From: Campylobacteraceae bacterium
Lineage (GTDB): Bacteria > Campylobacterota > Campylobacteria > Campylobacterales > Sulfurospirillaceae
Reading direction: 5' to 3'
Length of the DNA stretch: 64,000 nucleotides
Assembly (NCBI GenBank): GCA_027050775.1
Contig: JALUBH010000027.1
Span: 62,001 to 126,000 of the forward strand
Shown here: positions 6,735-42,806 of the stretch, piece after piece
How positions within the stretch are numbered: the first letter of the stretch is position 1
How the letters are laid out: each line of letters begins with the position of its first letter
Program-made: the position numbers and the translations under genes
Notes under the pieces: model-generated
The model's database searches: none
Told to the model about the DNA's origin: nothing
The model's input: only the letters and a program-made list of their open reading frames with translations

Positions 6735-6749
6735 CCGTGCCTAACTCCT

Positions 6750-7016
6750 TCACTGTTTTGCCAACTCTTCGATATTTATTTGTTTTATTTTAAATTTGCC
6801 ATTTAAGATTTTTACCAATCTTTTTCTCTCTTGTTTTATGCACTGCGTACAGATATAGAAGCTTCTTCCAGTCTTAGTATAGCTAACCAATTTTCTATCT
6901 TTTTCTTGGAAACGATATAAATCTTTTTGGGGAAATCTTCCTCTGCATACAACGCACATGCGCGTAGTTATTTTAAAATCAGTAATTATAGCAGAATTTA
7001 ACGGTTTTTCCAACAT
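6750..7016 (-). CDS. YlxR/DUF448 family RNA-binding protein
   Basis: 88 residues with the family signature TRMCVVCRGRFPQKDLYRF near the N-terminus and GRSFYICTQCIKQ in the middle. Its cysteine pairs are conserved in this branch of the family. YlxR proteins are small nucleic-acid-binding proteins almost always placed next to infB, as here. The precise role is not settled. It is seven bases from thrB upstream and 15 from infB downstream, so it is part of the operon. Confidence 0.85.
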   Translation of the reverse strand: MLEKPLNSAIITDFKITTRMCVVCRGRFPQKDLYRFQEKDRKLVSYTKTGRSFYICTQCIKQERKRLVKILNGKFKIKQINIEELAKQ

Positions 7017-7022
7017 TTACTC

Positions 7023-7910: not shown

Positions 7911-7922
7911 GGTCTTATCCTT

Positions 7923-8360: not shown

Positions 8361-8383
8361 GACATCTACATCTTTTACATGCT

Positions 8384-18286: not shown

Positions 18287-18541
18287 ATGTCACTACTGAT
18301 AACAGATGAATGTATAGCTTGTGATGCTTGCAGGGATGAGTGTCCAAATTGTGCTATTGAAGAGTCAGATCCAATATATATAATTGACCCGGATATTTGC
18401 ACCGAATGCGTTGGTCATTATGATGAACCTGCCTGCATATCTGTTTGTCCTGTCGATTGCATAGTGCCGGATCGAGACAACATAGAGAGTATGGAAGAGT
18501 TAAGATTAAAATTTAAACAACTAACTAGCGAAGAAGAGTAA
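18287..18541 (+). CDS. fdxB: YfhL-type 2[4Fe-4S] ferredoxin (FdxB)
   Basis: 84 residues with two cluster motifs. The first is CIACDACRDECPNCAIEE. The second is CTECVGHYDEPACISVCP, with the long insertion between its second and third cysteines typical of the Allochromatium/YfhL type. It is a small soluble electron carrier. Its stop codon overlaps the ATG of the next gene (TAATG), and a ferredoxin in this position before a Ppx/GppA gene is conserved in relatives. Confidence 0.9.
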   Translation: MSLLITDECIACDACRDECPNCAIEESDPIYIIDPDICTECVGHYDEPACISVCPVDCIVPDRDNIESMEELRLKFKQLTSEEE

Positions 18542-23231: not shown

Positions 23232-23741
23232 CTATTCCAAGCTTTTTATAAACTCTAAAAATCCTTTTATGATCTCTTTTGGTTCTGGCGGGCAACCATG
23301 TATTTGATAAGAAATTGGGAGATTTAGAGAAGTTGCACCTTTTATCGCAAAGTTTTCTTCAAATACACCATCTAAAAGCGGGCAGTCTCCTAGCGTGATT
23401 ATGTATGATGGTTTTGGTATTTGATTATAAACTTCTAAAACATGATGATACATATTTACTCCAACCACCCCGCTAAGGAGCATAACATCTGCGTGCCTAG
23501 GACTTGCTACAAAATGAATACCAAGTCTGTCTAAATCATAATACGGATTAGACAAGGCATTGCATTCTGCTTCACAAGCGTTGCAACTACCACTGCTTAC
23601 CATTCTTATAGCCAAACTCCCCGCAAATCTTTTGTTTATTTTACTCTTTAACTCTTTTTTTAATTGTGCTAATTCGTCATCAAATTCTAGATTTACAGTT
23701 GCTATGTTTTCTTTAGCTCTTCTTTGCCAAAATTTTATCAT
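23232..23741 (-). CDS. NuoB/HyfI-like small subunit (set B, detached)
   Basis: 169 residues. Group-4 hydrogenase small-subunit type with an N2-like 4Fe-4S site: C53 and C56 in GSCNACEAEC, C120 in LGDC, C150 in GCPPEP. There is an extra C60. It is a clear paralogue of the subunit at 25247-25756. It starts seven bases after the stop of the permease gene and is therefore probably co-transcribed with it. Set B's own large subunit (32794) has no small subunit beside it, so I assign this one to set B by elimination; that is inference. Confidence 0.82.
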   Translation of the reverse strand: MIKFWQRRAKENIATVNLEFDDELAQLKKELKSKINKRFAGSLAIRMVSSGSCNACEAECNALSNPYYDLDRLGIHFVASPRHADVMLLSGVVGVNMYHHVLEVYNQIPKPSYIITLGDCPLLDGVFEENFAIKGATSLNLPISYQIHGCPPEPKEIIKGFLEFIKSLE

Positions 23742-23748
23742 TTATACC

Positions 23749-25149
23749 TCATATTTTTTCATTATTATACCATTTTAGCATCAATTCTTCTTGTGCTGTT
23801 TTTGCAACTAGTCTATTTTTGCTATATAAAAAATAATAAAGCGCACCAATTACATATAGTATAATTGTACATAAAAATGCTTTTGGGTCGTAGGCATAAA
23901 CACCTGTTAATGCTATAAGAGACAGTATCAAAGATAGTCCTGATGTTACTACTCCACCTGGTGTTTTATATGGTCTTTGCATATCTGGTTGTTTTATTCT
24001 TAGTAAAATATGACTTAAAGACATAAGTGCATATGAAATAGTTGCACCAACAACTGCCATACCTAGCATCAAATCACCTTCACCACTTAAAGATGCTGTA
24101 AACCCTATAATACCAGGAATTATCAATGCCCATGTTGGAGCTTTTCTTTTGCTTGTAAGCGACAAAAACTGTGGTAAATACCCAGCTCTTGAAAGAGCAA
24201 ATACTAACCTACTATATCCATATATCATAGAGAAAAATGATGCAACCAAACCTGCAAGCCCTAAGATATTTACTAAAGTTGCCAATGAACTATAACCACT
24301 TAAATTAAGTGCATCTACTAAAGGAACTAAACTTTTTCCAATTACTTCAGAGCCAACTGCACCGGCTGTTAAAAATACAACTAAAACAGCTGTAAAAAGT
24401 AAAAATATCATCGCTGCAATAATTCCTCTTGGAACATCTTTAGCTGGGTTTTTCGCTTCTTCAGCAGCTAATGGAACACCTTCAACAGCTAAAAATAACC
24501 ACATAGCAAAAGGTAATGCAGCCCAAACACCATACCAACCAAAAGGCAATATTTTACTTGAACCAACTACATGAACTGAAGCAGAAATATCAAATAAATT
24601 ATTGATATCAAAATGCCCAATAAGTGCTACTGCAGTTACTATAATTGCAAATACAGCTAATGCACTAATAACCATTATTGATTTAAGTGCTTCACCAACA
24701 CCATATAAATGAATAGCAATAAAAACAGCATAAAAAAGGGCATAAACCATAGGTCCGTTAATGCCAAACAAAGCTTCAACTGCGGAGCCTATAAAAATAA
24801 CAATAGCAGCAGGTGCTAAGGCATACTCAATAAGTATTGCAAATCCTGTTAGATAACCACCGGCAGGACCCATAACTTGCCTTGCAAAACTATAACCACC
24901 ACCAGTAGTAGGAATTGCAGCTGACATCTCAGCTAATGATAAAACTAAACAAATATACATAATAGCCATTACTGCATATGCAATTACGAAACCACCCCAT
25001 CCAGCTACTCCTATTCCAAAGTTCCATCCTGCGAAATCTCCTGATATCACATAAGAAATTCCTAAGCCTGCTAACAGCATCCATCCGGCTGTTCCTTTCT
25101 TTAATTGTCTTTTGGCTAAATAATCTTGATTAATATGATTTGCACTCAT
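23749..25149 (-). CDS. APC-family permease, ethanolamine-permease-like
   Basis: 466 residues, about 12 hydrophobic segments. Matches the amino acid/polyamine/organocation superfamily: GTAGWMLLAGLGISYVISGDF at the start (first membrane segment with the unwound glycine region), AEMSAAIPTTGGGYSFARQ, EGVPLAAEEAKNPAKDVPRG, and a C-terminal RIKQPDMQRPYKTPGG. The overall look is that of ethanolamine permeases of proteobacteria, but I see no eut enzymes in the window, so the substrate is uncertain. It sits between two hydrogenase-like small-subunit genes, an unusual place. Confidence 0.8.
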   Translation of the reverse strand: MSANHINQDYLAKRQLKKGTAGWMLLAGLGISYVISGDFAGWNFGIGVAGWGGFVIAYAVMAIMYICLVLSLAEMSAAIPTTGGGYSFARQVMGPAGGYLTGFAILIEYALAPAAIVIFIGSAVEALFGINGPMVYALFYAVFIAIHLYGVGEALKSIMVISALAVFAIIVTAVALIGHFDINNLFDISASVHVVGSSKILPFGWYGVWAALPFAMWLFLAVEGVPLAAEEAKNPAKDVPRGIIAAMIFLLFTAVLVVFLTAGAVGSEVIGKSLVPLVDALNLSGYSSLATLVNILGLAGLVASFFSMIYGYSRLVFALSRAGYLPQFLSLTSKRKAPTWALIIPGIIGFTASLSGEGDLMLGMAVVGATISYALMSLSHILLRIKQPDMQRPYKTPGGVVTSGLSLILSLIALTGVYAYDPKAFLCTIILYVIGALYYFLYSKNRLVAKTAQEELMLKWYNNEKI

Positions 25150-25246
25150 TATTTTCCTTCGTATAATACATTAACCAACCAAAAACAACTAAAATTTCAT
25201 CTTTTGACAATTTTTTCATATAAATACCCACAAACCCCCAAATAGT

Positions 25247-25756
25247 TTAGCGTTTAGACAGTAACTTTAACAATCCGCTTATCAAATCAATAGGCTCAGG
25301 AGGGCAGCCTTTTATCCACAAATCAACTGGTAGTTTATCTCCGATTCCTCCCATGCAAGCATAGCTGTCTTTAAAATCTCCACCATCCATCGCGCAATCT
25401 CCTACTGCGATTATAAACTTAGGATTTGGGGTTAGCTCATAAGCATTCATTAATGCCTTATACATATTTTTGCTCAAGGCCCCTGTTATCATTAAGGCAT
25501 CTGCGAACTTTGGAGATGGGACAAATGATATGCCAAACCTCTCTAGGTTATAGTAAGGGTTTGCTAAGGCATTTATCTCTATTTCGCAGGCATTGCAACT
25601 TCCTGTATCTACCTCTCTTATGGAAAAACTTCTTTTGAAGATTTTATCTACTCTTTTTTTTAGCTCCAAACCTAAAACTTCTATATTTTCATCTCTAAAT
25701 TCTAGTTTTTCACTCAAAAGTTTATCACGAAATCTCATCTTAACTAAATCAATCAT
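25247..25756 (-). CDS. NuoB/HyfI-like small subunit (set A)
   Basis: 169 residues. Iron-sulfur ligands are C54 and C57 (GSCNACEIEI), C121 (VGDCAMDGG) and C151 (KGCPPEP), as in group-4 [NiFe] hydrogenase small subunits and, apart from spacing, NuoB. Its ATG overlaps the stop of the large-subunit gene (ATGA), so the two are translated together. The cluster would sit at the interface with the large subunit and can in principle pass electrons. No ferredoxin-like HyfH/NuoI gene is adjacent. Confidence 0.9.
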   Translation of the reverse strand: MIDLVKMRFRDKLLSEKLEFRDENIEVLGLELKKRVDKIFKRSFSIREVDTGSCNACEIEINALANPYYNLERFGISFVPSPKFADALMITGALSKNMYKALMNAYELTPNPKFIIAVGDCAMDGGDFKDSYACMGGIGDKLPVDLWIKGCPPEPIDLISGLLKLLSKR

Positions 25757-27282
25757 AAATCATTTCCTGCATAGCTTAAATTTAAACTTTTATTGACCAA
25801 TGGAAAGTCTCCTATAACATCTCCCAAAACTGCGAATTGAATACTTTGCCAATTCATAAAGCTAGGGTCTCTTGGTTTAAATCTAACTACTTTTTTATCT
25901 TCAATCTTTACAAAATGCACGATATTTCCACGATTGCTTTGGGCATATCCGAACTCTTCGCCATCTTTTATCTCGTATTTTACTTTTAATTTTGGTTTAT
26001 CAACTTGCGATATATAATTTGTGCATATTTTTATAATCTTAAAACTGTTTTTTATGTCATTTAGCTTTACTCGCACTCTTGCGCTCACATCACCATCACT
26101 CAAAACCAAAGTTTCAAAATCAAGCTTAGAGTATATCAAGTATGGATGAGTTTTTCTAAAATCGCTAAATCTACCGCTTGCACTCGCTGTAAATCCTACG
26201 CAAGATAAGTCTTTTACGGTTTGTTTTTTAATTTTTCCTGTAGTCTCTAGTCTTTCCAATATACTAGAGGAATTTTCCATTATCTTTTTGTATTTATCAA
26301 ATGTGATATTGACTTGCTTGATGATATCTATAATCTCTTTTGTGTATGGTTTTATATTTTTAGACACGCCTCCGATTATCACAAAATCTTTAAAAAATCT
26401 ATTGCCACTTAAGAGCTTCATCAGTCGCATAATATCCTCTTTTAAAGCGGTAATTCCACTTGCTCCAAAAGAGTAACCGGCATCTTGAAAAACTCCTGCA
26501 AAATCAGATAAATTGCAAGAAATTCTCTCCAATTCCGCTGCTATAACTCTGCAATACTGAGCAAAACTAGGAACTTTGATATCACAAATCTTCTCAATCG
26601 CCATAGCAAAGCTAAGGGCATGAGAAAGGGCATTGTCTCCTGAAATCTTTTGAGAAATATTTAAAACTTCATCTACCTCTTTTCCCTCACAAAGCTTTTC
26701 TATGCCTCTATGCTTCCAAAAATGCCTGATTTCAAGCTGAAGAATCGGCTCACCTGACATAGCAAATCTAAAATGCCCCGGCTCGATGACTCCTGCGTGA
26801 ATAGGTCCTACGGGAACTGTATATACGCCTTCACTTTTTACATCTTTATACTCATATGTGCCATAATTTTCATCTTTAATTTTATCATTTTGCATCGGAT
26901 GAAAACCGATAGGATAATTTTCAGGGTGCAGGGGCAATGCCCTAAAATCTGGATGATTAAGCGGGATTATGCCAAAAAGGTCAGATATCTCTCGCTCAAA
27001 CCAGTTTAGCGCAGGAATATCATCGGCAAAACTCTCAAATTCATCTTGAATATTTTGACAAACTATGAAAAAATAATCTTTTTTAGGATAAGAATAGAGG
27101 TATTTTATGTTAAACCCATCTTTTGCCCTAAGTGCTACGACGCTACTTAAATCACAATCTAAATCCCTAAAAAGATACAATGATAGAGATTTTAACTGTT
27201 TTGTTTTAATAGTTACAAAATTTCCATCTTCACTAAATTCATCACAAAAGTAGTGGATAGAATCAAATATCTCTTTCATCAA
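25753..27282 (-). CDS. NuoCD/HyfG-like large subunit lacking [NiFe] ligands (set A)
   Basis: 509 residues. The N-terminal NuoC-like part (about 1-125) contains NWFEREISDLFGI. The NuoD/hydrogenase part begins with VPVGPIHAGVIEPGHFRF and FWKHRGIEKLCEG. Where [NiFe] enzymes have ERICGIC, this protein has QKISGDN (S214, N217). Where they end in DPCxxC, it has NLSYAG (S503, G506). All four metal ligands are therefore absent. The protein resembles the catalytic subunit of Ehr-type complexes that lie between complex I and group-4 hydrogenases. Hydrogenase activity is not expected; the substrate is unknown. Confidence 0.88.
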   Translation of the reverse strand: MMKEIFDSIHYFCDEFSEDGNFVTIKTKQLKSLSLYLFRDLDCDLSSVVALRAKDGFNIKYLYSYPKKDYFFIVCQNIQDEFESFADDIPALNWFEREISDLFGIIPLNHPDFRALPLHPENYPIGFHPMQNDKIKDENYGTYEYKDVKSEGVYTVPVGPIHAGVIEPGHFRFAMSGEPILQLEIRHFWKHRGIEKLCEGKEVDEVLNISQKISGDNALSHALSFAMAIEKICDIKVPSFAQYCRVIAAELERISCNLSDFAGVFQDAGYSFGASGITALKEDIMRLMKLLSGNRFFKDFVIIGGVSKNIKPYTKEIIDIIKQVNITFDKYKKIMENSSSILERLETTGKIKKQTVKDLSCVGFTASASGRFSDFRKTHPYLIYSKLDFETLVLSDGDVSARVRVKLNDIKNSFKIIKICTNYISQVDKPKLKVKYEIKDGEEFGYAQSNRGNIVHFVKIEDKKVVRFKPRDPSFMNWQSIQFAVLGDVIGDFPLVNKSLNLSYAGNDL

Positions 27283-28733
27283 AGCACTCCTTTGTTACTT
27301 AAAATATCTACTGCATTATTTAAAAGTATCTTCATGTTTTCCGGCATCGTAATGCCAAGATATATCATCATACCAAGCAACATCGCCATAGGAAGAAGCA
27401 TCTTATAATCTTCTTTTTTAACTTCATCACTTTTTCCCATTAGCATAGAGCTAAAAAGATAGATAAAGCCTCCGAAAATCATCACTAAAAACAGTAAAAC
27501 TACAACAATTTGCCAGTACATGTGAGCATCCAAAGCAGAAGTCAAAATCAAAAATTCACTTATAAATATATTAAATGGCGGAATCCCTGTGATGCCTAGA
27601 ACTCCAAGAGTTATAAACACAGCAGTTAGAGGCATACTTTTATATAAACCTTTAATCTTTGAAATTTCCCTAGTGTGAAAATTTACCAAAATAGAACCCA
27701 CACTTGAAAACATCAAGCCTTTTGCAAAGACATGGTTTATAAGATGAAGCAAACCTGCAAAAACTCCAAGTCTGTTTCCTATACCAAAAGCAAATGCCAT
27801 AAGTCCCATGTGCTCCATCGATGAAAACGCCAAAAGTCTTTTATAATCTTTTTGACCGATGATTGCGATGGCCGCAATAAATATGGAAAGCATACCAACG
27901 AGGAGTAAAAGATTTGATGTAAAATGCACTAAACCGGCACTATCAACGATGGCTTTAAGCCTCAAAATCAAATACAGCGCAGAACTAAGTAAAACACCGC
28001 TCATCAAAGCACTGATAGGTGTTGGTGATTGCGAATGTGCATCAGGAAGCCAAGAGTGCATAGGAGCTAATCCTGCTTTTGTGCCAAAGCCAACCAAGAA
28101 AAAGGCAAAAGATATCTTTAAAAGTGATGGATCTAAATGTGAAGAAATTTTTATGATATTTATCCAATTTAAAGAGTTCATTCCCTCACCCAAAGTGTGA
28201 TAAGTAGCAAAGTAAAGCGTAACCACCCCAAAAAGTCCCAAGGCTATACCAAACGAACAAATGATTATGTATTGCCAAGAAGCTTTAATCGCATCTTTTG
28301 TGTTGTAAAAACCTATCAAAAAAGTGGTAGATAGGGTAGTTCCCTCTATCGCTATCCATGCGATTCCAAAATTGTTTGAAACCAAAACAACGCTCATGCA
28401 AAATACAAATAAATTCTTCCACATGTAAAAAGTCTTAACCTTCTCCTCGCTTAATCCTTGTTCTTGCTCTTTTTTCATATATCCTATAGAATAAATCGCT
28501 ATACAAAAAACAAGAAATAGCAATGAAGTCAAAATCAAAATATTTAAAGAATCAAGAAAAAGATAATCTTTGATTTGAAATATCACCTTTTGATTTATCA
28601 CCTTTGGGATATAACTAAAACTACCTAGAAAAAGTATAGCAGTGATAAAAACTTGTGCCACATAAACAACTCTAAGCGGAAGAAACTTGACAAGGGCTGT
28701 CCAGATCAGTTGGATTGCTAGTATATATCCCAT
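27279..28733 (-). CDS. HyfF-like antiporter/proton channel subunit (set A)
   Basis: 484 residues with about 14 membrane segments, a NuoN/L/M-type subunit. The key charged residues are present: Glu in WIAIEGTTLST (TM5) and Lys in VGFGTKAGLAPMHSWLPDAH (TM7), followed by SQSPTPISALMSGVL. These residues form the half-channels for ion translocation. It overlaps the large-subunit gene by four bases and follows the HyfE-like gene by three bases. The set B counterpart at 34472 has lost part of this signature. Confidence 0.9.
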   Translation of the reverse strand: MGYILAIQLIWTALVKFLPLRVVYVAQVFITAILFLGSFSYIPKVINQKVIFQIKDYLFLDSLNILILTSLLFLVFCIAIYSIGYMKKEQEQGLSEEKVKTFYMWKNLFVFCMSVVLVSNNFGIAWIAIEGTTLSTTFLIGFYNTKDAIKASWQYIIICSFGIALGLFGVVTLYFATYHTLGEGMNSLNWINIIKISSHLDPSLLKISFAFFLVGFGTKAGLAPMHSWLPDAHSQSPTPISALMSGVLLSSALYLILRLKAIVDSAGLVHFTSNLLLLVGMLSIFIAAIAIIGQKDYKRLLAFSSMEHMGLMAFAFGIGNRLGVFAGLLHLINHVFAKGLMFSSVGSILVNFHTREISKIKGLYKSMPLTAVFITLGVLGITGIPPFNIFISEFLILTSALDAHMYWQIVVVLLFLVMIFGGFIYLFSSMLMGKSDEVKKEDYKMLLPMAMLLGMMIYLGITMPENMKILLNNAVDILSNKGVL

Positions 28734-28736
28734 GGC

Positions 28737-29384
28737 TTACTCCTTAAAATCACTAAGACTTGTGGCATCCATGTCATCTATGTCATGATTGATATGATGG
28801 ATGATAAGCGAAGCCATAGTAGCACCAACGATAACATCAAAAAATATACCAATTTCTACTATCAAAGGCATACCATAAGTCACAGAAGTGGCAACTAGCA
28901 TGATGCCGTTTTCCAAAGTCAAAAAGCCTATGAGTTGCGTGATTGGTTTTTGCCTTGAAACCATGATAAATGCACCGATAAAGATAATCGACAAGGAGAT
29001 AGGAAATATCTCTTTTGCTATAACGCTTCCACCTATATTTATATATCTTGTGAGTAAAAATGTAAATATTATAATCGCTGAGATAACCAGTAAAGAGTTT
29101 GTGATATTTACAAATGCCTTTATCTCTCTTTTGATTTTCATCTCATCAATTGTTTTAAAAAGTGCATAAGGTATGATAAATGTTTTGATGACAAGAGTCA
29201 AAAAAGAGCTAACATACAAATCAAAAGAGGAGCTATAAATTCCGATACTCAAAATCGAAATAGAGACGAAAAATGACTGAACCGCATATACTTTTATCGA
29301 AAAATAGAGTCTATCGCTTGTTATTTGTAAAATTGCCAAAACTAAAACGAAAGCACCGATAAGTTCTATAAAATCTGAAAACAC
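28737..29384 (-). CDS. HyfE-like membrane subunit (set A)
   Basis: 215 residues, about seven membrane segments. C-terminal segment GFLTLENGIMLVATS followed by GMPLIVEIGIFFDV is the mark of HyfE proteins, which resemble NuoK fused to part of a MrpC-like protein. It lies between the NuoH-like and HyfF-like genes with gaps of 12 and 3 bases. Conserved Glu residues in ENG and VEIG are likely part of the ion path (by family). Confidence 0.88.
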   Translation of the reverse strand: MFSDFIELIGAFVLVLAILQITSDRLYFSIKVYAVQSFFVSISILSIGIYSSSFDLYVSSFLTLVIKTFIIPYALFKTIDEMKIKREIKAFVNITNSLLVISAIIIFTFLLTRYINIGGSVIAKEIFPISLSIIFIGAFIMVSRQKPITQLIGFLTLENGIMLVATSVTYGMPLIVEIGIFFDVIVGATMASLIIHHINHDIDDMDATSLSDFKE

Positions 29385-29396
29385 TAAAATACCACC

Positions 29397-30332
29397 TTAT
29401 AACCTATATGTAACCATGGAAATCAAAGCCAAAACAAAGCCAAACATCATGGCATCTGAAATCCTAAAATACCTCAACTTCGCAAGTGTCAATTCACCAA
29501 TCGCTATAATAACCCCTAGCGTACTCATCTTTATAAAATAGATAAAAATGCTAAAACCGATAGTCCAAATGTTGTTTGTATCATAAAATCCTAAAGGCAT
29601 AAAGATATTTGAAAAAAGAGTTAGAAAAATCGTAGTTTTAACGAAAGAGCCTATCTCTAAGAGAGCCAGATTTCTGCCAGATGCATCTAAAATCATGGCT
29701 TCATGAATCATCGTCAGCTCAAGATGAGTTTCCGGATTATCGATAGGAATCCTCCCTGCTTCTGCTAGTGTGACAAAATACAGAGCCATCAAAGCTAGGG
29801 TTGAGGAGACAGGATAATTGAAAAATATATCGCCTCGCATGGAGTCAAATATATGACTAATATTTGTAGAATTGCTTTGAAGTGCAAAAGTAAAAATCAC
29901 CATTATGAAAGCTGGTTCCGCAAGTGATGCCACAGTCATCTCACGACTACTCCCAAGCCCTCCAAAAGAGGAACCTTGGTCAAATCCAAAAAGTGCCAAG
30001 AAAAAAGTTCCAAGAGCTAATATATAAACCATGGCTATAATATCACCACTAAAGGACATCAGAGTATTGCTATCAAATACAGGTAAAAATCCAGCCACTG
30101 TAATAGGCACAACTGCTACGATATATGGGGCGATTATAGAGATATATGAAGATTGATTTGATAGAACAACTTCTTTTTTCATTAATTTTACGATGTTAAA
30201 ATATGGTTGAAAAACAGAAGGACCGATAGAGCCTCTGATGAGAGATTTTGTTTTTTGCATGAGTCCCGCAATAAATGGAGAAATACCCAATATGATAAAA
30301 AACTGCAATAAAGCCATAAGTAAAGTTTGCAT
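29397..30332 (-). CDS. HyfC/NuoH-like membrane subunit (set A)
   Basis: 311 residues, about eight membrane segments. IAGLMQKTKSLIRGS and PYFNIVKLMKKE near the N-terminus and RIPIDNPETHLELTMIHEAM (around 205-225) match NuoH/HyfC/EchB. In complex I this subunit connects the hydrophilic arm to the pump and lines the quinone cavity. It begins right after the HyfB-like gene (no spacer). The paralogue is at 36477. Confidence 0.92.
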   Translation of the reverse strand: MQTLLMALLQFFIILGISPFIAGLMQKTKSLIRGSIGPSVFQPYFNIVKLMKKEVVLSNQSSYISIIAPYIVAVVPITVAGFLPVFDSNTLMSFSGDIIAMVYILALGTFFLALFGFDQGSSFGGLGSSREMTVASLAEPAFIMVIFTFALQSNSTNISHIFDSMRGDIFFNYPVSSTLALMALYFVTLAEAGRIPIDNPETHLELTMIHEAMILDASGRNLALLEIGSFVKTTIFLTLFSNIFMPLGFYDTNNIWTIGFSIFIYFIKMSTLGVIIAIGELTLAKLRYFRISDAMMFGFVLALISMVTYRL

Positions 30333-32324
30333 CTAATTTACCCCTCCTCTAACAGCATATACCAAAAAAGCGATAGAAGTTATAAGGATATATAAAAGGT
30401 ATATATGGATTGAACCATTTTCGATTAAATTTATCAAATATGCACTACTTTTTACGAAGACTTTTAGCACGAGAGTATAAACACTCTCGACTCCATCGTG
30501 TGAATGTGCTTTGTACTCAAGAGTTGGAAAAAAGTATTTTTTCTTTCTTAAAGTTGGATATATCTTTTCTTTTGGATGATAAAAAAATGCAAATATCCTT
30601 CTGATTGGTTGAGAAAAACCGCTTGCGGTATATTGATTGCTAGCATCATTATTTAGCTGACCACATCCCCATGTGGAACACATTCTTGTTTTGGTATTTC
30701 CAAATTTTTTGATTAATATATAGAGTATAAAAATACCCACTGCAAAACCGATTGAGAGTCCAAGAGTGCTTAAATGTCCAAAAGCAAAGTTTGGAGTTGA
30801 AATCATAAACAAGTGTGAACTAGTAGATGATGACACATCAACGCCCAATAAAAGTGAAGTGATTGGAGCTACAAGTGCGATCACGATATGAGAAAAAAGA
30901 CCAAAAAGCACACAAAGAGCTGCTAGAAATCCCATGCCCCAAATCATGTATTTTCCAACTTCATTTGCATTTTTTGCACCATCACTTCTTGGACTTCCTA
31001 GAAATGAGATTCCTATGACTTTGACAAAACAAGCTGCTGCAAAAGCACCGGTTAGTGCTAACATGGATGCAAAAAGAGGAACAAAAATGTGTATGATATT
31101 TATGTCTATTTTGTTATTTAAAAGTAAAGATTGATATGTAAGCCATTCACTTACAAACCCATTGAAAGGCGGGAGCGCTGAGATAGATATGGAGCCAATT
31201 ATAAAAAATAGTGCGGTATAGGGCATCAGTTTTATAAGTCCACCATATTTTTCCATGTCTTTTGTGTGGGTTTTTAAAAATGTTGCGCCTGAGCCTAAAA
31301 ATAACAAGCTTTTGAAAATCGCATGATTATAAGTGTGGAAAATTGCGGCTAAAAGTCCAAAAGATGCAAGAAGAGGCATATGATTTGAGTTAAACAACAT
31401 GGCACTCCCCAATCCCATCAAAATTATACCTATATTTTCTATGCTGTGATATGCAAGGAGTCTTTTTAAATCGTGCTGAGCTAAGGCATACATGACTCCA
31501 AATAGAGCCGAAAGAGAGCCCAAGAGCAAAACTATAAAGCCATACCACCAAGGGATATCGCTAAGAAAATAAAAGTAAAATCTTATCATCATATAAATCG
31601 CTGTTTTTATCATGACTCCACTCATCAAAGCAGAGACATTTGAAGGTGCAACGGGGTGAGCTTTTGGCAACCAAACATGCAGAGGAAACATACCGGCTTT
31701 TGTTCCAAAACCTATCAAGACACATAAAAATACCCAAAATTTTGTACTACTATCAAGCTCTACATGTACCCAATTTTCAAACGAAAAAGAGCCGGTTTTT
31801 AGATACATCAATATAAAAGCTACCATGATAAAAGCAGTTCCAAGGTGTGTCATAAAGATATACAAAAAGCCGCCTTGTCTATTTTCTTCATTTTCATAAT
31901 TGTAAATAACCAAAAAGAAAGAGAGCGTGGACATAATCTCCCAAAAAATCAAAAATGAAATAGCATTGAAACTAGTAACAACAAAAAGTAAAGATGCGAT
32001 AAATGCCGTATATATAAAGGCAAATAATCTTTTATGGTGATAATCTTCGTCATATACATAATTCAATGAGTATGCTGAAACACCAAGAGATATGGTCGAG
32101 ATTATCATGACAAAAAGCAGAGATAAAGAATCAAGCTTTATCGAAAAATCAAGATATGGCAAAGATGAATGAAACATAAAAATACTATTGTATTCATGTT
32201 TCAATAATAGCACAGCAGAGAAAATCAACAACGCTAAACTAGAAAATGCCTGCACGATAAAAGCAGCTTTGGACTTTAGAAAAAAAAGCACAGGCAATAC
32301 CATCAAAAAAATATAAATTAACAT
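30333..32324 (-). CDS. HyfB-like antiporter subunit (set A)
   Basis: 663 residues, about 16 membrane segments, NuoL/MrpA-type. TM5 Glu is in LIFWEIMSTLSF and TM7 Lys in GFGTKAGMFPLHVWLPKAHP, followed by SNVSALMSGVMIKTA. A soluble-looking stretch near residues 555-610 contains TWGCGQL and YTASGFSQPIRRIFAF, as in HyfB. It is the first complex gene of set A and starts 19 bases after the small exported protein gene, so both may share the promoter near 32788. Confidence 0.92.
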   Translation of the reverse strand: MLIYIFLMVLPVLFFLKSKAAFIVQAFSSLALLIFSAVLLLKHEYNSIFMFHSSLPYLDFSIKLDSLSLLFVMIISTISLGVSAYSLNYVYDEDYHHKRLFAFIYTAFIASLLFVVTSFNAISFLIFWEIMSTLSFFLVIYNYENEENRQGGFLYIFMTHLGTAFIMVAFILMYLKTGSFSFENWVHVELDSSTKFWVFLCVLIGFGTKAGMFPLHVWLPKAHPVAPSNVSALMSGVMIKTAIYMMIRFYFYFLSDIPWWYGFIVLLLGSLSALFGVMYALAQHDLKRLLAYHSIENIGIILMGLGSAMLFNSNHMPLLASFGLLAAIFHTYNHAIFKSLLFLGSGATFLKTHTKDMEKYGGLIKLMPYTALFFIIGSISISALPPFNGFVSEWLTYQSLLLNNKIDINIIHIFVPLFASMLALTGAFAAACFVKVIGISFLGSPRSDGAKNANEVGKYMIWGMGFLAALCVLFGLFSHIVIALVAPITSLLLGVDVSSSTSSHLFMISTPNFAFGHLSTLGLSIGFAVGIFILYILIKKFGNTKTRMCSTWGCGQLNNDASNQYTASGFSQPIRRIFAFFYHPKEKIYPTLRKKKYFFPTLEYKAHSHDGVESVYTLVLKVFVKSSAYLINLIENGSIHIYLLYILITSIAFLVYAVRGGVN

Positions 32325-32343
32325 CCCATGCCTATATTGTTTC

Positions 32344-32757
32344 TTATTTCTTGCAATCGCTTTTTGTCACATTAAATTGAAAAAGTTTTGCTTTGGTTTT
32401 AGCACTTATATAAATATAAGATATATTTATATTAGAATCCAAAAAGTATTTTGAAGATTGACAGATTCCTTGTGTTACATATTTGCTCATTCTTCTTCTA
32501 TCTTCACTTTTAACAGCTTCATCACTTTTTGCACCAGTATTAATCTCAAAAGTATAAAATAGAGTCAAACCTTTGCTTGATATCGCAGTAAATTGTGTAT
32601 ATTTATCTACTTTTTGAGGTAATTTTTTTGATATGGCAGCAACTGCTGCTTTGATAACTTGCTTATTTTGCTTTAACATTTCTTTACTTAAATCAGCAGC
32701 AAATAAGCCGGCTCCCAAAGAGATAATCAGCATAAAGCTTAACAATGTATTTTTCAT
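32344..32757 (-). CDS. Small exported protein of unknown function
   Basis: 137 residues. Signal peptide MKNTLLSFMLIISLGAGLFAA, then a charged alpha/beta domain with two late cysteines (about C99 in GICQSS and C135 in KSDCKK) that could form a disulfide. I do not recognise a family. It has its own candidate promoter and precedes the set A HyfB-like gene by 19 bases, so it is placed to be the first gene of the set A operon. That would put a periplasmic factor in the same transcript as a membrane complex. Confidence 0.6.
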   Translation of the reverse strand: MKNTLLSFMLIISLGAGLFAADLSKEMLKQNKQVIKAAVAAISKKLPQKVDKYTQFTAISSKGLTLFYTFEINTGAKSDEAVKSEDRRRMSKYVTQGICQSSKYFLDSNINISYIYISAKTKAKLFQFNVTKSDCKK

Positions 32758-32787
32758 TCTTTTATGTCCTTTTAAAAATTTTATCTT

Positions 32788-32793
32788 ATTATA
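32788..32793 (-). promoter_or_regulatory. Candidate -10 box for the set A operon
   Basis: TATAAT on the minus strand within ATAGTATAATAAG, directly after the stop codon of the set B large subunit and about 31 bases before the exported-protein ATG. It suggests set A is transcribed independently of set B. Confidence 0.45.
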
Positions 32794-34167
32794 CTATAAA
32801 TCACTACCAGCATAGCTTAGGTCGCAACTTTTATTGATAAGTGGGAAGTCGGCGATAATATCTTTTTCCATCATCAAATAAAGTGCTTGCCAATTTATAA
32901 AACTTGGGTCTCTTGAGTAAAATCTTTCTATTTTTCCCTCTTTTAATTCTATAAACATAAACAACTCTCCGATAGAACTCTCACAAAAACTCATGTATTG
33001 TCCATCTTTGAACTTAGTTGGTTTTTCTATCTGCATGACATCGTCTATAAAGTTTCTTATCAAAGTTATAGAGTTATATATCTCTTTAATTCTAAGTTTA
33101 AATCTCGCAGCTACATCACCTATCTCTTCATTTTGTATAACAAAACCATGTTTTTTATAAAAATCATTATCTCTTCTATCTACATTTTTGCCGCTGGATC
33201 TGGCTACAACTCCTAAGACTCCATACTTTCTTGCTTTTTGTTTATTTAGGGTTCCTGTTGTATCAAATCTATCCCAAAGCGAAGGAATATCTGTAATCCA
33301 ATCTTCAAACCATCTTACTTTTTCTTCTAAAGTTTTTAAAAATTCTAATAATTTTTCACGATCATACTCTTTGGCTTCAAAACCAACACTGCCAAATCCA
33401 AATCTATGTCCACAAAAATCTTTTAAAAACACTCTCGCATCTTCACTTAATTGCGAAGCAAAGCTAAGAGCAGCACCAAAACCAGCATCATTTGGTATAA
33501 AACCTATATCAGTAAGATGATGGATAATTCGCTCAAACTCCAAAAGCAAATAGTGATATTTTTTCAGTTTTTCATCATATTTTATTTCGCTCGATTGCGC
33601 CAGTATATCAAACCAAGCAACTTGATAAGCTATGCTTTCATTTCCACTAATTCGCTCTATTATCTCTTTGGCTTCAAATAGATTTTTGCCCTCAAGTGAT
33701 TTTTCTATGCCACGATAAGTATAAAAATGCCTAATATCAAGATGAAGAATCCTCTCTCCTTCTTGTGAAAACTGAAAATGCCCAGGCTCTATGATTCCCG
33801 CATGTACGGGACCTACTGCTACTTCAAAAACTCCCTCACCTCCAACTGTTTCGTATTTGTAAGGGGTAAATTTATCATACTCTACATGTAGAGATTTAAA
33901 ATCTTTTCGCATGGGGCTAATATCTGGAAATCTCTCGTGATGAACCAATGGCCTATTGTCATAACCGCCTTTGATTTTGATACCAAAATCATCTCTTATC
34001 TTTCGTTCAAACCAAGTTGCAGTTGTGTATTTTGATGATATGGATTTTAAAATAGGATTTTCTAAGTCAAGTTTTTCTCTTAAAACCTCATCATCAAAAA
34101 CTGTGATAACTTCAAAACAATCGCTATTTTGCAAAGCAAATCTTGCTATAAGTCGTTGCTCTTTCAT
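32794..34167 (-). CDS. NuoCD/HyfG-like large subunit lacking [NiFe] ligands (set B)
   Basis: 457 residues, a paralogue of the set A large subunit with a shorter NuoC-like N-terminus (TWFERKIRDDFGI near residue 51). The hydrogenase-like part keeps VAVGPVHAGIIEPGHFQF and YRGIEKSLEG. At the first metal site it reads ERISGNE (S174, E177) in place of ERICGIC. At the C-terminus it reads DLSYAG (S451, G454) in place of DPCxxC. All four ligands are gone, in the same positions as in set A, so loss predates or is shared by both sets. It overlaps the DUF167 gene by four bases. Confidence 0.88.
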   Translation of the reverse strand: MKEQRLIARFALQNSDCFEVITVFDDEVLREKLDLENPILKSISSKYTTATWFERKIRDDFGIKIKGGYDNRPLVHHERFPDISPMRKDFKSLHVEYDKFTPYKYETVGGEGVFEVAVGPVHAGIIEPGHFQFSQEGERILHLDIRHFYTYRGIEKSLEGKNLFEAKEIIERISGNESIAYQVAWFDILAQSSEIKYDEKLKKYHYLLLEFERIIHHLTDIGFIPNDAGFGAALSFASQLSEDARVFLKDFCGHRFGFGSVGFEAKEYDREKLLEFLKTLEEKVRWFEDWITDIPSLWDRFDTTGTLNKQKARKYGVLGVVARSSGKNVDRRDNDFYKKHGFVIQNEEIGDVAARFKLRIKEIYNSITLIRNFIDDVMQIEKPTKFKDGQYMSFCESSIGELFMFIELKEGKIERFYSRDPSFINWQALYLMMEKDIIADFPLINKSCDLSYAGSDL

Positions 34168-34475
34168 CTCTTTTCTTCTTCCATAAATTCACTCATCACT
34201 TTTGGAAATTTCTTTGGGGCTTTGATTTTGAACTGCTTATTTATGCTCGTTAATCCAAAGCTAAGCTCGATGTCAGCTTTTTTTACTCCAAACTCTTTGG
34301 CTAAAAATTTTATCATGTAATCCGTAGCTTTTCCATCTTCTGCCGCTGCTTTTATGGCTATTTTTAACTGATTTCCTCGTATCTTTCCTATCTTATCCAC
34401 TTTAGCTGAAGGAGTTCCAAGCACATTTAAAACTAAAATATCATCTTCAAAATGGAAAAAAAGATCTTCTCTCAT
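34164..34475 (-). CDS. DUF167/YggU family protein inside the set B operon
   Basis: 103 residues. The segments IRGNQLKIAIKAAAEDGKATDYMIKFLAKEFGV (in pieces) and IELSFGLTSINKQFKI match the small YggU/DUF167 family (pattern DGKAN, with N replaced by T here, then a G-xTSR-like strand, here GLTSINK). Function of the family is not established. It overlaps the HyfF-like gene upstream and the large-subunit gene downstream, each by four bases, so it is locked into translation of the complex and may have been captured by it. Confidence 0.72.
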   Translation of the reverse strand: MREDLFFHFEDDILVLNVLGTPSAKVDKIGKIRGNQLKIAIKAAAEDGKATDYMIKFLAKEFGVKKADIELSFGLTSINKQFKIKAPKKFPKVMSEFMEEEKR

Positions 34476-35884
34476 GATATGCTCCTTAAAAATTCAAAAC
34501 TCCAAGGTGTCAGTAAAAACAACAAAGACAAAGCAAAAATCACTAATGCAAAAACTTCATTGCCATAAACTACTTTTTGCTTTTCCTCTCCCTCATACTT
34601 CATAGATTGGTAAATTTCAACAAATTTATAAAATATGATGGATAAAAGCCCTAACAATATAATAATAGCACCTATCATCAACAGTAGATGCTTATTAACT
34701 TTCGCTATATCTATCATAGCACCAAAACCATAAAGCTCACTAAAAAACATGGGGCTTGGAGGAATTGACACTATCGCTAGCAAAAACAAACCGGTTAAAA
34801 AATAAAACACTTTTCCGCTCACTCCACTGTAACCTTTTAATGCTCCAGCTATCCTGTACTTTCCTTTTGATTCTAAGATGCCGGTTGAGAGAAAAAGAGC
34901 CGGCTTTAAAAATGCATGAGCTCCAAAATGCAAAAGTGCCGGAAATATACCACCACTTGCCCAAAAAAGTGCGATTATAGCCATATGCTCTACGCCAGAG
35001 AGTGAAAAAAGTCGCATAAAATCTTTTGCGCGATATATCAAAAAAGAGACGATAAATATAGTCAAAGCCGTATAGGTAAATACAAATATAAATACATGTT
35101 GATGATTTATAATGCTGGCAATCTTGCTAAATCTAAAAAATCCAACTATGACGGCACTCTCTAAAATACCGCTAAAAAGTGCAGCTATGGGATAAAAAGA
35201 GGCTCTTTCTATATTGGCAAGCCATAAATTCATAGGGAAAAATCCCATCTTTATAAACATGCCAAGTGTCGTGATAGCAAATCCTATCTCAAACAAGAAC
35301 GGTGATTTTATATGTTTTGCATTTTGTAATAAAGCCGAAAAACTCATCGCATTTTCACCTAAAATCGGCTTAGCACTTGCATAAATCAAAATGATACCAA
35401 AAAGTATCAAAGAGATGGCAATGGCACCAACTATCATATAATTCCAAGCCTCTTTTTTTGCCGCTAGTGTTTGATTTGTTTTTATCATATAGACTGTACT
35501 TAGCGTGGCAGTCTCTAAACCTATCCAATAAACTCCCATATTGTTTGCCAATATGGAAGCAGTAAGACCTATCCAAAAAATCGCAAAAAATCTGTAAAAT
35601 TTTGCATTTTCACTTTTGCTTATCTTTACATGTAAGTCAAGTGTACTGACTGCCAGCGTTACACAAATAGCTACGATAGAGGAAACAAGCATTATGTATT
35701 CGCTTAATTTATCTACGACCAAATAATCACCCCAAACGGAATAAGGCTTTGGTAAAAAAAATAATCGTATTGATGGAATCAAAATCAAAAGCGAAGTGAT
35801 TGGAAAAAGATATTTTGATTTACTTATATCCCAAAATGAAAATACCAACATGATAAGTGCAGGTAGCATCAATAGAAAAATCAC
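34472..35884 (-). CDS. HyfF-like antiporter subunit with altered channel motif (set B)
   Basis: 470 residues, about 14 membrane segments. TM5 Glu is kept (WIGLETATLST). The TM7 region reads TLGMFIKMGFFPMNLWLANI where set A has GFGTKAGLAPMHSWLPDAH: Lys is present but the His and Asp of the following loop are replaced. The protein is thus a diverged paralogue, and the ion-path chemistry may differ. It overlaps the HyfE-like gene upstream by four bases and DUF167 downstream by four. Confidence 0.85.
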   Translation of the reverse strand: MIFLLMLPALIMLVFSFWDISKSKYLFPITSLLILIPSIRLFFLPKPYSVWGDYLVVDKLSEYIMLVSSIVAICVTLAVSTLDLHVKISKSENAKFYRFFAIFWIGLTASILANNMGVYWIGLETATLSTVYMIKTNQTLAAKKEAWNYMIVGAIAISLILFGIILIYASAKPILGENAMSFSALLQNAKHIKSPFLFEIGFAITTLGMFIKMGFFPMNLWLANIERASFYPIAALFSGILESAVIVGFFRFSKIASIINHQHVFIFVFTYTALTIFIVSFLIYRAKDFMRLFSLSGVEHMAIIALFWASGGIFPALLHFGAHAFLKPALFLSTGILESKGKYRIAGALKGYSGVSGKVFYFLTGLFLLAIVSIPPSPMFFSELYGFGAMIDIAKVNKHLLLMIGAIIILLGLLSIIFYKFVEIYQSMKYEGEEKQKVVYGNEVFALVIFALSLLFLLTPWSFEFLRSIS

Positions 35885-36471
35885 GATAACTCCTCCGATT
35901 TAAAAAGTAGATTTATGATGACAATCGCCATCAATAAATCAAAAAATATACCAAGTTCTACAAGCATCGGCATACCATTTGTCGCTGTAGTTCCTAGTAA
36001 AAACAGTGAATTTTCTATCGTTAAAAATCCTATGATTTTAGCTGCTATATTTTTATGTTCAATTATCAACAAAAGAGATAAAAATAGAGCTGATATGCTT
36101 ATAGCTACATAATTTGCATTTGATGACATCATATTTGTGATTGGCTCTGCCAAATAAAATGTAAAAACTAAAAGTGCGGGTATGAGCATAATAGAGTAAT
36201 AAACCGGCACATTTGGTGTAATTTGACGAGCTAATCCAAACTTAATACTAACTTTTTTCAATATATATGGAATCACAGCTGACTTAACAATGAGTGTCAA
36301 AAATCCACTTATAATCATAGTGTTATCGTCTATCTTAAATCCGATAGATATCGCCAAAAGTGCAAGCGAGAGTGAATTCAGTGAGTACCAAAGAATCAAT
36401 CCATACAATCTGGATGTGAAAAGAGCGCTTATAAGTGTGGCTAAAAATGCTCCTATTAAAAAACTAGTCAT
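35881..36471 (-). CDS. HyfE-like membrane subunit (set B)
   Basis: 196 residues, about six to seven membrane segments. GFLTIENSLFLLGTT followed by GMPMLVELGIFFDL is the HyfE signature, as in the set A copy (215 residues). It starts six bases after the NuoH-like stop and overlaps the HyfF-like gene by four bases. Confidence 0.87.
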   Translation of the reverse strand: MTSFLIGAFLATLISALFTSRLYGLILWYSLNSLSLALLAISIGFKIDDNTMIISGFLTLIVKSAVIPYILKKVSIKFGLARQITPNVPVYYSIMLIPALLVFTFYLAEPITNMMSSNANYVAISISALFLSLLLIIEHKNIAAKIIGFLTIENSLFLLGTTATNGMPMLVELGIFFDLLMAIVIINLLFKSEELS

Positions 36472-36476
36472 AATTT

Positions 36477-37397
36477 CTACGCCCCCAACACATAAAATGT
36501 GATTAGCGATAAAAACGCAAAAACTATAGCAATTCCAAGAAGATTTGGCACTTTAAAAAGTCTCAATTTTGCTATGTTTACTTCTAGGAGTGCTACAGCA
36601 ATTGCTACTATAAAAAGCTTAGCGATAAAAACCAAAATAGCTGATACAATAGGAAGGTTTAATCCAAATGGCACAAATAATGATACAAATATGGATGCAA
36701 AAATTATAAATTTTATACTTCCTGCACTCTCAATTAATAATAGATAAAATCCGCTGAGATCCAAAATCATAGCTTCATGAACCATTGTTAGCTCTAAGTG
36801 CGTTTCTGGATTGTCAACTGGGATTCTACCGTTTTCTGCAATCAAAAGTATAAAAAAACTAATGCCTGCAAATATAAAACTAGCTATATGAGATGATGGA
36901 AAATGCAAACTAAGGTTTATACCTGCTTGTCCAATTCCAAGATTTTTTGCCATCATGGAGACACTAAAAAGTGTCAATATCATGGCAGGCTCCACCAAAG
37001 CAGAGATAAAAGCTTCACGGCTACTTCCAAGTCCTCCAAAACTACTCGCACTATCAAGTCCAAGAAGCATAAGAAAAAAGGTGGAAAGCGAGATAAGTCC
37101 AGTAATCGTAAAAGCATCTACAAAACTCACATAATATTCACCACTTACGATAGGTGGAAGAAAAAACAGAGTCAGCAAAAGAGGCGAAAGAACTAAAAAA
37201 GGTGCAATTCTTGTGATAGCACTTGTCTCTTTTGAAATGATTATCTCTTTGCTCAATAATTTTGAAAAATCCCTATATCCTTGGAAAATTGAGATTGGTT
37301 TTTTATATAAAAGATACATCTTCACCATCTTCATAAAACTGGGCATCAAAGGAGCTAAAAAAATCAAAAGCAATATACTAAAGATATAAAGAATCAT
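36477..37397 (-). CDS. HyfC/NuoH-like membrane subunit (set B)
   Basis: 306 residues, about eight membrane segments. PISIFQGYRDFSKLLSKE near the start and RIPVDNPETHLELTMVHEAM around residues 200-220 place it in the NuoH/HyfC family. The second motif is almost identical to set A. It overlaps the HyfB-like gene by four bases. Confidence 0.91.
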   Translation of the reverse strand: MILYIFSILLLIFLAPLMPSFMKMVKMYLLYKKPISIFQGYRDFSKLLSKEIIISKETSAITRIAPFLVLSPLLLTLFFLPPIVSGEYYVSFVDAFTITGLISLSTFFLMLLGLDSASSFGGLGSSREAFISALVEPAMILTLFSVSMMAKNLGIGQAGINLSLHFPSSHIASFIFAGISFFILLIAENGRIPVDNPETHLELTMVHEAMILDLSGFYLLLIESAGSIKFIIFASIFVSLFVPFGLNLPIVSAILVFIAKLFIVAIAVALLEVNIAKLRLFKVPNLLGIAIVFAFLSLITFYVLGA

Positions 37398-39274
37398 TTT
37401 TTATCTCCAATGAGCAATACTTTGATAGATATAATCATCACTACAGACTCTAATGCCAATGTCGCCCAGCTAAACTCATGGACAAAAATTCTATAACTAA
37501 ATAAAACAGACAAGAGTATGTTAAAAATCATCGCTGCATATCTGCTTTGCTCAAAATGAGCCAACCTATAGACATAATAACTCATCTTATTTGTCCATTT
37601 CACGCTACTTTGATAAAGCGATCTCTCAAAAAGAGGTCTTACATGTACGCTAAAACTTGCGTCTTTAAACTTTGTTTTATGCCCTGCTATAACTTCTTTT
37701 TCAAAGTGCTCATCAGGATTGTATAACCAAGTAAAAAATCTTCTAATTGGTCCTGCAAAGCCTGTTGCGGAGTATTGTGTTTTGGCACTTGTATTGTAGC
37801 CGCATGCCCAAGTATGATAAACTCTATCTTTTATATTTAAGGATTTATAAATCGCATATATGCTTAAAGTTAGCACAATTAATCCAGCCAACAGAATAAG
37901 AGGTGAAACTATACCGCCGTTATCGGATATCGAGTGCATGCTCCAGATATTTGGAAAAATTTTGTTGTATATACTTATATGTAAGAGTTGGCCGGTTACC
38001 CCATCAAAAAGTTTCATATAAAAAGGGGTAAAGAGCATCAAAGAGACCACAACCAAACTCATCAAAATCATACCTGTTTTCATCATCGCATTTACTTCGT
38101 GAGCGTGTTTTGCATTTGTACTTCTATGAAGCCCTAAAAATGTAATACCAAAGACCTTTACGAAACAAGCTATCGCCAAACCTCCCGTTAGGGCAAGTGC
38201 AAAAACAGAAAATGGTATAGCTAGTTTTAGTGAAATATTATCTATACTTGCCGAGCCAAGGAGGGATTGAAAAATCATCCATTCACTCAAAAATCCATTT
38301 GTCGGAGGAAGTGCAGATATACTGATGGAAGCCAAAAGAAATGTAAAAGCAGTTATAGGCATCGCTTTTATGAGTCCGCCATATTTTTCCATATTTTTAG
38401 TTTTTGTTTGATGAAGAACACTTCCTGCACCCATAAATAGTAAAGATTTAAAACTCATATGATTAAACGAATGAAAAAGTGCTGCCATAAAAGCAAAAGC
38501 GCTAAGAGTTGGTAATTTTAGCGATAAAAATATCATGCCCATGCCAAATCCTAGAAGAATAATACCGATATTTTCGATGGAATGATTTGCTAAGAGTGCT
38601 TTTATATCGTGCTCACTGAGGGCATATAAAACTCCCACCAAAGAAGAGATTGCACCTAAAATTAGTATTAAAACTCCCCATTCAAGTTGCCAATCTGACA
38701 AAATATCAAATAAAAATCTAAACAGTCCATAAATCGCAACTTTTAGCATAACTCCGCTCATCAAAGCGGAAACAGGACTAGGAGCTGCGGGATGAGCATA
38801 AGGGAGCCATACATGCATAGGAACCACTCCGGCCTTACTCAAAAGTCCAAGCACTGCAAAGAAAAATAACAAAGTAGGATATGCAAAATTTGATGCGATA
38901 ATTTTCATAGAATTAAAATCAATCTCAAGATTTCCGTTTGTTACAATCAAGAAAAATAGCAATAAAAATACAAATCCAAAGTGAGTCATAAAAAAGTAAA
39001 ATCTGGCCGCTTTTATAGTTGATTTATCTTCAATTTCAGTAAGTATTAATTGCCAAGAAGTCAAACTCATAAGTTCCCAAAATAGTAAAAAAACAAGAGC
39101 ATTTCCTGCAACTACAACACCAAGCATAGATATGATGAAGCCAAAATAATGCACTAGATAATGTACTTTTCTTTTTATATGAGGTAGATAACCAAAAGAG
39201 TAAAACAAATTTGGCACGACTCCAAGCATTATTAAAAATACAAATAAAATTGACAATTTATCAAATATAAACAA
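37394..39274 (-). CDS. HyfB-like antiporter subunit (set B)
   Basis: 626 residues, TTG start with AGGAT seven bases upstream. About 15-16 membrane segments of NuoL/MrpA type: TM5 Glu in LLFWELMSLTSW, TM7 Lys in GLLSKAGVVPMHVWLPYAHP, then SPVSALMSGVMLK. The late region has TWACGYN and YSATGFAGPIRRFFTW as in set A. It opens the whole 16-kb array; upstream lie a candidate -10 box and a palindrome. Confidence 0.92.
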   Translation of the reverse strand: MFIFDKLSILFVFLIMLGVVPNLFYSFGYLPHIKRKVHYLVHYFGFIISMLGVVVAGNALVFLLFWELMSLTSWQLILTEIEDKSTIKAARFYFFMTHFGFVFLLLFFLIVTNGNLEIDFNSMKIIASNFAYPTLLFFFAVLGLLSKAGVVPMHVWLPYAHPAAPSPVSALMSGVMLKVAIYGLFRFLFDILSDWQLEWGVLILILGAISSLVGVLYALSEHDIKALLANHSIENIGIILLGFGMGMIFLSLKLPTLSAFAFMAALFHSFNHMSFKSLLFMGAGSVLHQTKTKNMEKYGGLIKAMPITAFTFLLASISISALPPTNGFLSEWMIFQSLLGSASIDNISLKLAIPFSVFALALTGGLAIACFVKVFGITFLGLHRSTNAKHAHEVNAMMKTGMILMSLVVVSLMLFTPFYMKLFDGVTGQLLHISIYNKIFPNIWSMHSISDNGGIVSPLILLAGLIVLTLSIYAIYKSLNIKDRVYHTWACGYNTSAKTQYSATGFAGPIRRFFTWLYNPDEHFEKEVIAGHKTKFKDASFSVHVRPLFERSLYQSSVKWTNKMSYYVYRLAHFEQSRYAAMIFNILLSVLFSYRIFVHEFSWATLALESVVMIISIKVLLIGDKK

Positions 39275-42521: not shown

Positions 42522-42806
42522 CTATTCTACGCAGGGAGTATCGCCTTTTCTAAGATCCGCTCCTATTTCGTCACGACTTGGTTGACCTTCAACCACATCA
42601 CTCCAAACTATACACCCTTCAGTCGGGCATGCAGCTGCACAAGCAGGTTCGTCATGATGACCAACACACTCTACACATTTGTCAGCATATACATAATATA
42701 TATCTTCTCCTGTTGGGTTATCATCATCATCAACAATCGCTTCTACCGGACACTCATCTATGCAAGCTCCACAAGCTATACAAATATCTGTAATTTTTAC
42801 AGCCAT
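42522..42806 (-). CDS. fdxA: 2[4Fe-4S] ferredoxin (FdxA type)
   Basis: 94 residues. First motif CIACGACIDECPVEAI. Second motif CVECVGHHDEPACAAACP with the extra spacing seen in Allochromatium-type ferredoxins, plus a further cysteine in TEGC and one near the C-terminus (TPCVE). It is divergent from the peroxiredoxin gene; the same pair (fdxA-ahpC) is known from C. jejuni and points to a redox-stress link. Confidence 0.88.
   Translation of the reverse strand: MAVKITDICIACGACIDECPVEAIVDDDDNPTGEDIYYVYADKCVECVGHHDEPACAAACPTEGCIVWSDVVEGQPSRDEIGADLRKGDTPCVE

Follow-up and report, generated by a model that had tools for sequence, protein, structure and literature searches.

Gene layout of the nested locus

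The window analysed here, a stretch of 64,000 nucleotides from a Campylobacteraceae bacterium, carries on its minus strand two sets of genes, A and B, each encoding HyfB, HyfC, HyfE, HyfF, a large and a small subunit, as judged from open reading frames and matches to Pfam and NCBIfam families. In the order of transcription, set B begins with a HyfB-like antiporter subunit (37394–39274; 626 aa, TTG start; PF00361, 4e-53; NCBIfam hydrogenase 4 subunit B), followed by a HyfC/NuoH-like subunit (36477–37397; PF00146, 2.7e-29), a HyfE-like subunit (35881–36471; NF008556; conserved Lys67/Glu158 columns), a divergent HyfF-like antiporter subunit with its Glu/Lys pair present (34472–35884; PF00361, 8.6e-20), a DUF167/YggU protein (34164–34475; PF02594), a large subunit that fuses 30 kDa and 49 kDa parts (32794–34167) and a 137-aa protein with a signal-peptide-like hydrophobic start and no family match (32344–32757). 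The series continues with the set A HyfB-like antiporter subunit (30333–32324; 663 aa; PF00361, 2e-57; NF005086, 681 bits, above cut-off), HyfC/NuoH-like subunit (29397–30332; PF00146, 1.9e-33), HyfE-like subunit (28737–29384; NF008556, 1.1e-21), HyfF-like antiporter subunit (27279–28733; PF00361, 5.4e-56), large subunit (25753–27282; alignments and AlphaFold model) and small subunit (25247–25756; PF01058, 1.8e-27). An APC permease of the ethanolamine-permease type comes next (23749–25149; TIGR00908, 482 bits against a cut-off of 382), and the displaced small subunit of set B stands last (23232–23741; PF01058, 2.5e-21).

Set A and the permease are nested within set B and separate its large subunit gene from its small subunit gene. 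Both sets hold the six subunit types of an Ehr complex, a definition that we took as it is relayed in papers citing Marreiros 2013. The two paralogous six-subunit sets announced in a preliminary description of this DNA were borne out in gene content by the reading frames and family matches, but set B was not contiguous as drawn there, and the permease, DUF167/YggU and 137-aa genes had gone unmentioned. The DUF167/YggU insert between HyfF and the large subunit is also present in L025, L033 and L040; the 137-aa gene is missing at the matching junction in the sister species, G007. A promoter and terminator scan gave no more matches than were found in shuffled sequence.

Neither operon contains a ferredoxin or other redox subunit, and no protein of either set has a CxxCxxCxxxC motif. 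The nearest such proteins are encoded by a ferredoxin-like gene upstream of set B (42522–42806, minus strand; PF12838, 2.1e-08), which belongs to a ferredoxin-ndk-plsX-fabH string on the same strand as set B, and by a second small ferredoxin-like gene at 18287–18541. Among 133 neighbour proteins, in which neighbour clusters made of antisense ORFs were thrown out and chance neighbours may remain, we found no shared redox enzyme or partner; the main repeated themes were sigma-54 regulators and ATP synthase. The ethanolamine-type permease is probably a passenger. A link to ethanolamine was rejected, as EutB is absent from the genome, the permease is rare in relatives and an APC gene lies near only one of 80 other loci. 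A homologue of the permease (80%) occurs in G013, from the same family as the window genome.

Metal site of the large subunits

The ligand columns were read from alignments with HycE of E. coli (7z0s) and with panels of 14 and 106 large subunits. At the four [NiFe] ligand positions, the large subunit of set A has S214/N217 and S503/G506 and that of set B has S174/E177 and S451/G454, which confirms the loss stated earlier for the first and last sites of both sets. Both proteins stop where [NiFe] enzymes are cleaved and have no maturation tail. Among 79 ligandless large subunits from many phyla, C1 is replaced by Ser in 96%, C3 by Ser in 100% and C4 by Gly in 99%, and nearly all the remaining highly conserved positions of these proteins are common to relatives with four Cys. 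The ligand columns have become fixed as Ser/Ser/Gly, not as random residues, which is new here. The rebuilt pocket carries the motif SG[D/N]x together with a C-terminal NKSx[N/D]LSY[A/S]G.D, and a loop, HAG(I/V)IEPGHF, is fully conserved. In the AlphaFold model of the set A large subunit (pLDDT 91.9), the closest solved fold is that of E. coli HycE (TM 0.93), which indicates that the ligands were replaced in place and the fold left intact; loop 161–167 is poorly ordered in this model. The columns of the quinone-site His and Tyr of the complex I 49 kDa subunit are occupied by Ile166 and Gly215, so ordinary quinone reduction is unlikely.

Conserved cysteines elsewhere at the metal site, which the preliminary description had itself named as evidence against its reading, were looked for in the 79 ligandless relatives, and no Cys was found among the columns conserved at 85% or more. 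An active [NiFe] hydrogenase with its cysteines moved elsewhere is accordingly extremely improbable: the HypD maturation gene found in the genome would suit such an enzyme, but the HycE-like fold with ligands replaced in place and the missing C-terminal tail also speak against it. The presence of HypD further indicates that missing maturation was not the cause of the ligand loss. We conclude that sets A and B are not hydrogenases, their large subunits being predicted to be unable to hold a [NiFe] centre.

With all four metal ligands gone, the complexes might instead be degenerate, non-functional hydrogenases heading for loss, and a 2026 Geobacter paper terms Ehr 'already nonfunctional' (PMC13194489). 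Purifying selection and the fixed signature speak otherwise. For 12 genes compared between the window and G007 (11 subunit genes and YggU; the small subunit gene of set B was left out, as it is not on the G007 contig), Nei-Gojobori-type counts gave dN/dS values of 0.013–0.083, which places every gene compared under purifying selection. The pseudogene reading was ruled out by these values. The reading frames of sets A and B are intact, and a Ser/Ser/Gly signature fixed across many phyla is not what decay leaves behind, which makes degeneration very improbable.

The preliminary description had compared the complexes with the Ehr type. Assignment to this type is upheld by the four-ligand loss, the six subunit types and a shared clade: in the large-subunit tree, a quick tree with long branches, a ligandless clade of 74 rows (SH-aLRT 94) holds both large subunits together with Nitrospira, archaeal and candidate-phyla proteins and adjoins forms with four Cys. 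Ehr complexes have been published from Nitrospira, Nitrososphaeraceae and candidate phyla (PMC10284858, PMC10432482, PMC7304191). Compared with other Ehr (Geobacter, Nitrospira, ammonia-oxidising archaea, candidate phyla), set B is a long branch with a shortened HyfB, and the genome studied here has two sets nested in one gene string, with single-cluster small subunits, and a third set elsewhere. Sets A and B share core subunit types with E. coli hydrogenase-4 and formate hydrogenlyase (Hyf, Hyc), in addition to the HycE fold, but they lack CGIC, DPCxxC, the cleavable C-terminal tail and the HyfA/HyfH/HycB/HycF ferredoxin subunits.

L060, L065, L075, L076, L082, L083, L085, L101, L107 and L118 encode group-4 large subunits in which all, or nearly all, of the four Cys motifs are present but the C-terminal tail is missing; such forms imply maturation without the usual endopeptidase. 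These tail-less forms (Bacillota and others; L060, L065, L082) resemble sets A and B in their C-terminal NKSFEL...Y..C.DR frame and adjoin the ligandless clade in the tree, but differ in that none of the four Cys is lost and that most have a two-cluster ferredoxin domain. In the large subunit of L098, Ser stands in place of the first and third Cys only. The third ligand-free Hyf-like set of the same genome (L021:7127–14647, G000:C28, minus strand) has NAGTS and QSVAEND at the two metal sites, and a small subunit with an extra Cys-rich N-terminal part; its HyfB gene comes at the end, not at the start. In the tree it lies away from sets A and B, so its ligand loss looks separate, although the branch is very long. 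Two complex I loci (L022, L024) are likewise present in the genome, as is, at L023:2159–10615 (G000:C3), an Mbx-like group-4 complex with MrpE and ferredoxin-like subunits and part of the ligands, its large subunit having CRIC at the first site and GICPPEIER, with one Cys of two, at the last.

Origin of the two sets and loss of small-subunit clusters

Of 397 genomes sampled from the phylum, which gene order and genome character suggest to be Campylobacterota, 28 contained set B at a strict cut-off, and these covered 15 of 68 genera; in the window's genus it lies downstream of fabH and near bamA. The small subunit gene of set B normally comes after the large subunit gene in other genomes, and the displaced gene of the window is orthologous to these. 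In both the window and G007, set A follows the large subunit gene of set B; in the window, set A and the permease precede the small subunit gene of set B, and the G007 contig ends soon after the small subunit gene of set A. At the same cut-off, set A occurred in the window genome only among the 397, and it is also present in G007 (95%). The one other match, in G062 (40%), turned out to be a set B locus. The nearest named relatives of set A are metagenome bins labelled outside the phylum (45–47% identity); as many relatives are such bins, taxon labels may be wrong. In the tree, set A groups with L044 and L045 as sister to the set B lineage (SH-aLRT 95–96).

On this distribution, set B is evidently an old, phylum-wide and native lineage, and set A, we infer, came by horizontal transfer and was placed inside the set B operon. 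Local tandem duplication was ruled out by the tree and the distribution, so the 'tandem pair' of the preliminary description does not stand as a local duplication. The junction between the large and small subunit genes of set B is a recurrent insertion point, occupied by set A in the window and G007 and by a cytochrome block in G009 (L029:10603–16009: dihaem cytochromes, cytochrome b561 and a two-component system). A set B locus in G040 carries two tandem HyfB genes (L034:2057–5839), and in L044, the closest relative of set A, amino-acid-kinase-family and NDK-domain genes lie between HyfF and the large subunit (6741–8599).

All four Cys of the proximal cluster are present in the small subunits of set A (C54, C57, C121, C151), set B and every set B orthologue. 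In most forms with a four-Cys large subunit, the small subunit combines the proximal cluster with a two-cluster ferredoxin domain; this domain is retained in the ligandless L062, L064, L086 and L090, and sets A and B, Nitrospira and others have the proximal cluster only. At 13 loci, whose hosts are candidate phyla, Dehalococcoidales, archaea and one actinobacterial bin, either three or all four of the proximal Cys are missing, the respective replacements being D/T/S/P, E/T/V (or Cys kept), D/G and D/N. Since the 13 small subunits checked contain one or two Cys in total each, these proteins alone could not bind a [4Fe-4S] cluster. Seven more candidate-phyla genomes show the same Cys loss, which gives at least 20 genomes altogether, mostly candidate-phyla bacteria. 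True CGIC hydrogenases from the same phylum as the seven added genomes (L161, L162) have small subunits that retain CCCC. Parsimony required two changes for the loss, and a single origin was rejected on the quick tree (p-AU 1e-44), which suggests that loss of the proximal cluster arose at least twice. In the literature examined, which excludes Marreiros 2013 and supplements, loss of the large-subunit ligands in Ehr is reported and we found no report of small-subunit cluster loss. Candidate-phyla Ehr operons at L058, L061, L063, L068, L084 and L087 stand beside F-type ATP synthase genes; where these loci include a small subunit, it has no Fe-S Cys.

Ion path and proposed coupling

Scored ion-path residues are present in HyfB, HyfC, HyfE and HyfF of both sets, which is compatible with the ion translocation put forward earlier. 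The 'different pump subunits' claimed alongside it are not supported, as both sets carry HyfB and HyfF of the same type with identical key residues (TM5 Glu/TM7 Lys). A real difference between the pump subunits does appear at the N-terminus of the set B HyfB, which lacks the first ~60 residues, or two helices, and is equally short in its orthologues. Two functional variants in one cell would be plausible. A division of tasks between the sets, for different ions, pH or salinity, would fit either mechanism considered below, and we regard it as possible, if somewhat short of an even prospect. It draws on the shortened HyfB and divergent HyfF of set B, on subunit identities of only 29–44% between the sets and on purifying selection acting on both; against it, the scored ion-path residues are identical, and set A, found only in the window genome and G007, may be redundant.

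The membrane arm is also conserved where the clusters have been lost. HyfB and HyfF have the TM5 Glu and TM7 Lys, and HyfB the TM8 Lys and TM12 Glu, at 13 of 13 cluster-free loci; the core Glu/Lys/His of these two subunits and the conserved acidic residues of HyfC are likewise retained there. One of the HyfC residues, Glu226, which set A also has, characterizes the ligandless class: it is present in 13 of 13 cluster-free, 12 of 12 set B type and 37 of 41 other ligandless forms, and the position is mostly His, Phe or Met in four-Cys forms. From the cluster-free relatives that retain the scored ion-path residues, non-redox, Mrp-like ion transport would be the best reading for the family. The preliminary description had left the choice between an unidentified electron donor or acceptor and no redox substrate; the latter is now favoured, and a redox role is still a rival for sets A and B.

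In such a role, ferredoxin or another carrier would pass electrons through the single [4Fe-4S] cluster to a small substrate reduced in the rebuilt pocket, and this would drive translocation. The full retention of the proximal Cys in sets A and B and in all set B orthologues, which would be odd for an idle cluster, points this way, as do the ferredoxin gene upstream on the same strand, a candidate electron donor, and the two-cluster ferredoxin domains of L062, L064, L086 and L090, which point to electron transfer in those relatives. The sulfane sulfur-reducing MBS, a group-4 relative with another acceptor (PMC7684303), offers a precedent. However, no redox subunit or enzyme is conserved beside the operons, the quinone residues are absent, and relatives without Fe-S ligands share the pocket signature even though electrons could not reach it by the known route. 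We therefore consider a redox-driven pump a rather doubtful possibility, albeit one to be taken seriously.

That sets A and B are instead Ehr complexes acting as Mrp-like H+/cation transporters with a non-redox coupling module is, in our judgement, an evenly balanced proposition. The pocket signature is the same whether or not Fe-S ligands are present, which makes electron chemistry an unlikely job for the pocket. What used to be the redox module, the large and small subunits, would have become a coupling or gating module of a non-redox kind, in which the rebuilt pocket and a mobile HAG(I/V)IEPGHF loop could pass movement to both the antiporter arm and the NuoH-like subunit; the poor order of the loop in the predicted structure is as expected for a mobile loop. 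In sets A and B, the remaining [4Fe-4S] site may be a structural part or a redox sensor. Set B would be the complex native to the phylum, and set A a second one, gained horizontally and placed in the set B operon. Like the Mrp cation/proton antiporter, the complexes have antiporter-like subunits with conserved Glu/Lys and a proposed non-redox transport; unlike it, they own large and small peripheral subunits, and no MrpB/C/E/F/G was recognised in either set. With complex I (NuoB/C/D/H/L/M/N) they share a homologous peripheral and membrane core and the proximal [4Fe-4S] site, but they have no NADH or ferredoxin module, and their quinone His/Tyr are replaced. We know of no transport measurement for any Ehr. 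Besides the retained proximal Cys, ferredoxin domains and upstream ferredoxin gene, two points weigh against non-redox transport in sets A and B: the cluster-free clades may have lost redox function secondarily, a loss that the two sets do not necessarily share, and Geobacter Ehr is abundant with formate (PMC7894505).

More broadly, and a little more tentatively, Ehr might be a non-redox branch of the complex I/hydrogenase superfamily, whose redox module was turned stepwise into a coupling or gating module. The series would run from [NiFe] plus three clusters to clusters only, to one cluster and to none, and sets A and B would represent the one-cluster stage, with the cluster as sensor or structural element.

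Over the past two decades, Ehr complexes have been recorded from many genomes. Relatives in which no known redox ligand is left while the scored ion-path residues persist would amount to naturally uncoupled forms of complex I, and from these one could learn how membrane arm and peripheral module work in the absence of electrons. Nested as they are in a single genome, the two sets offer a defined genetic test.
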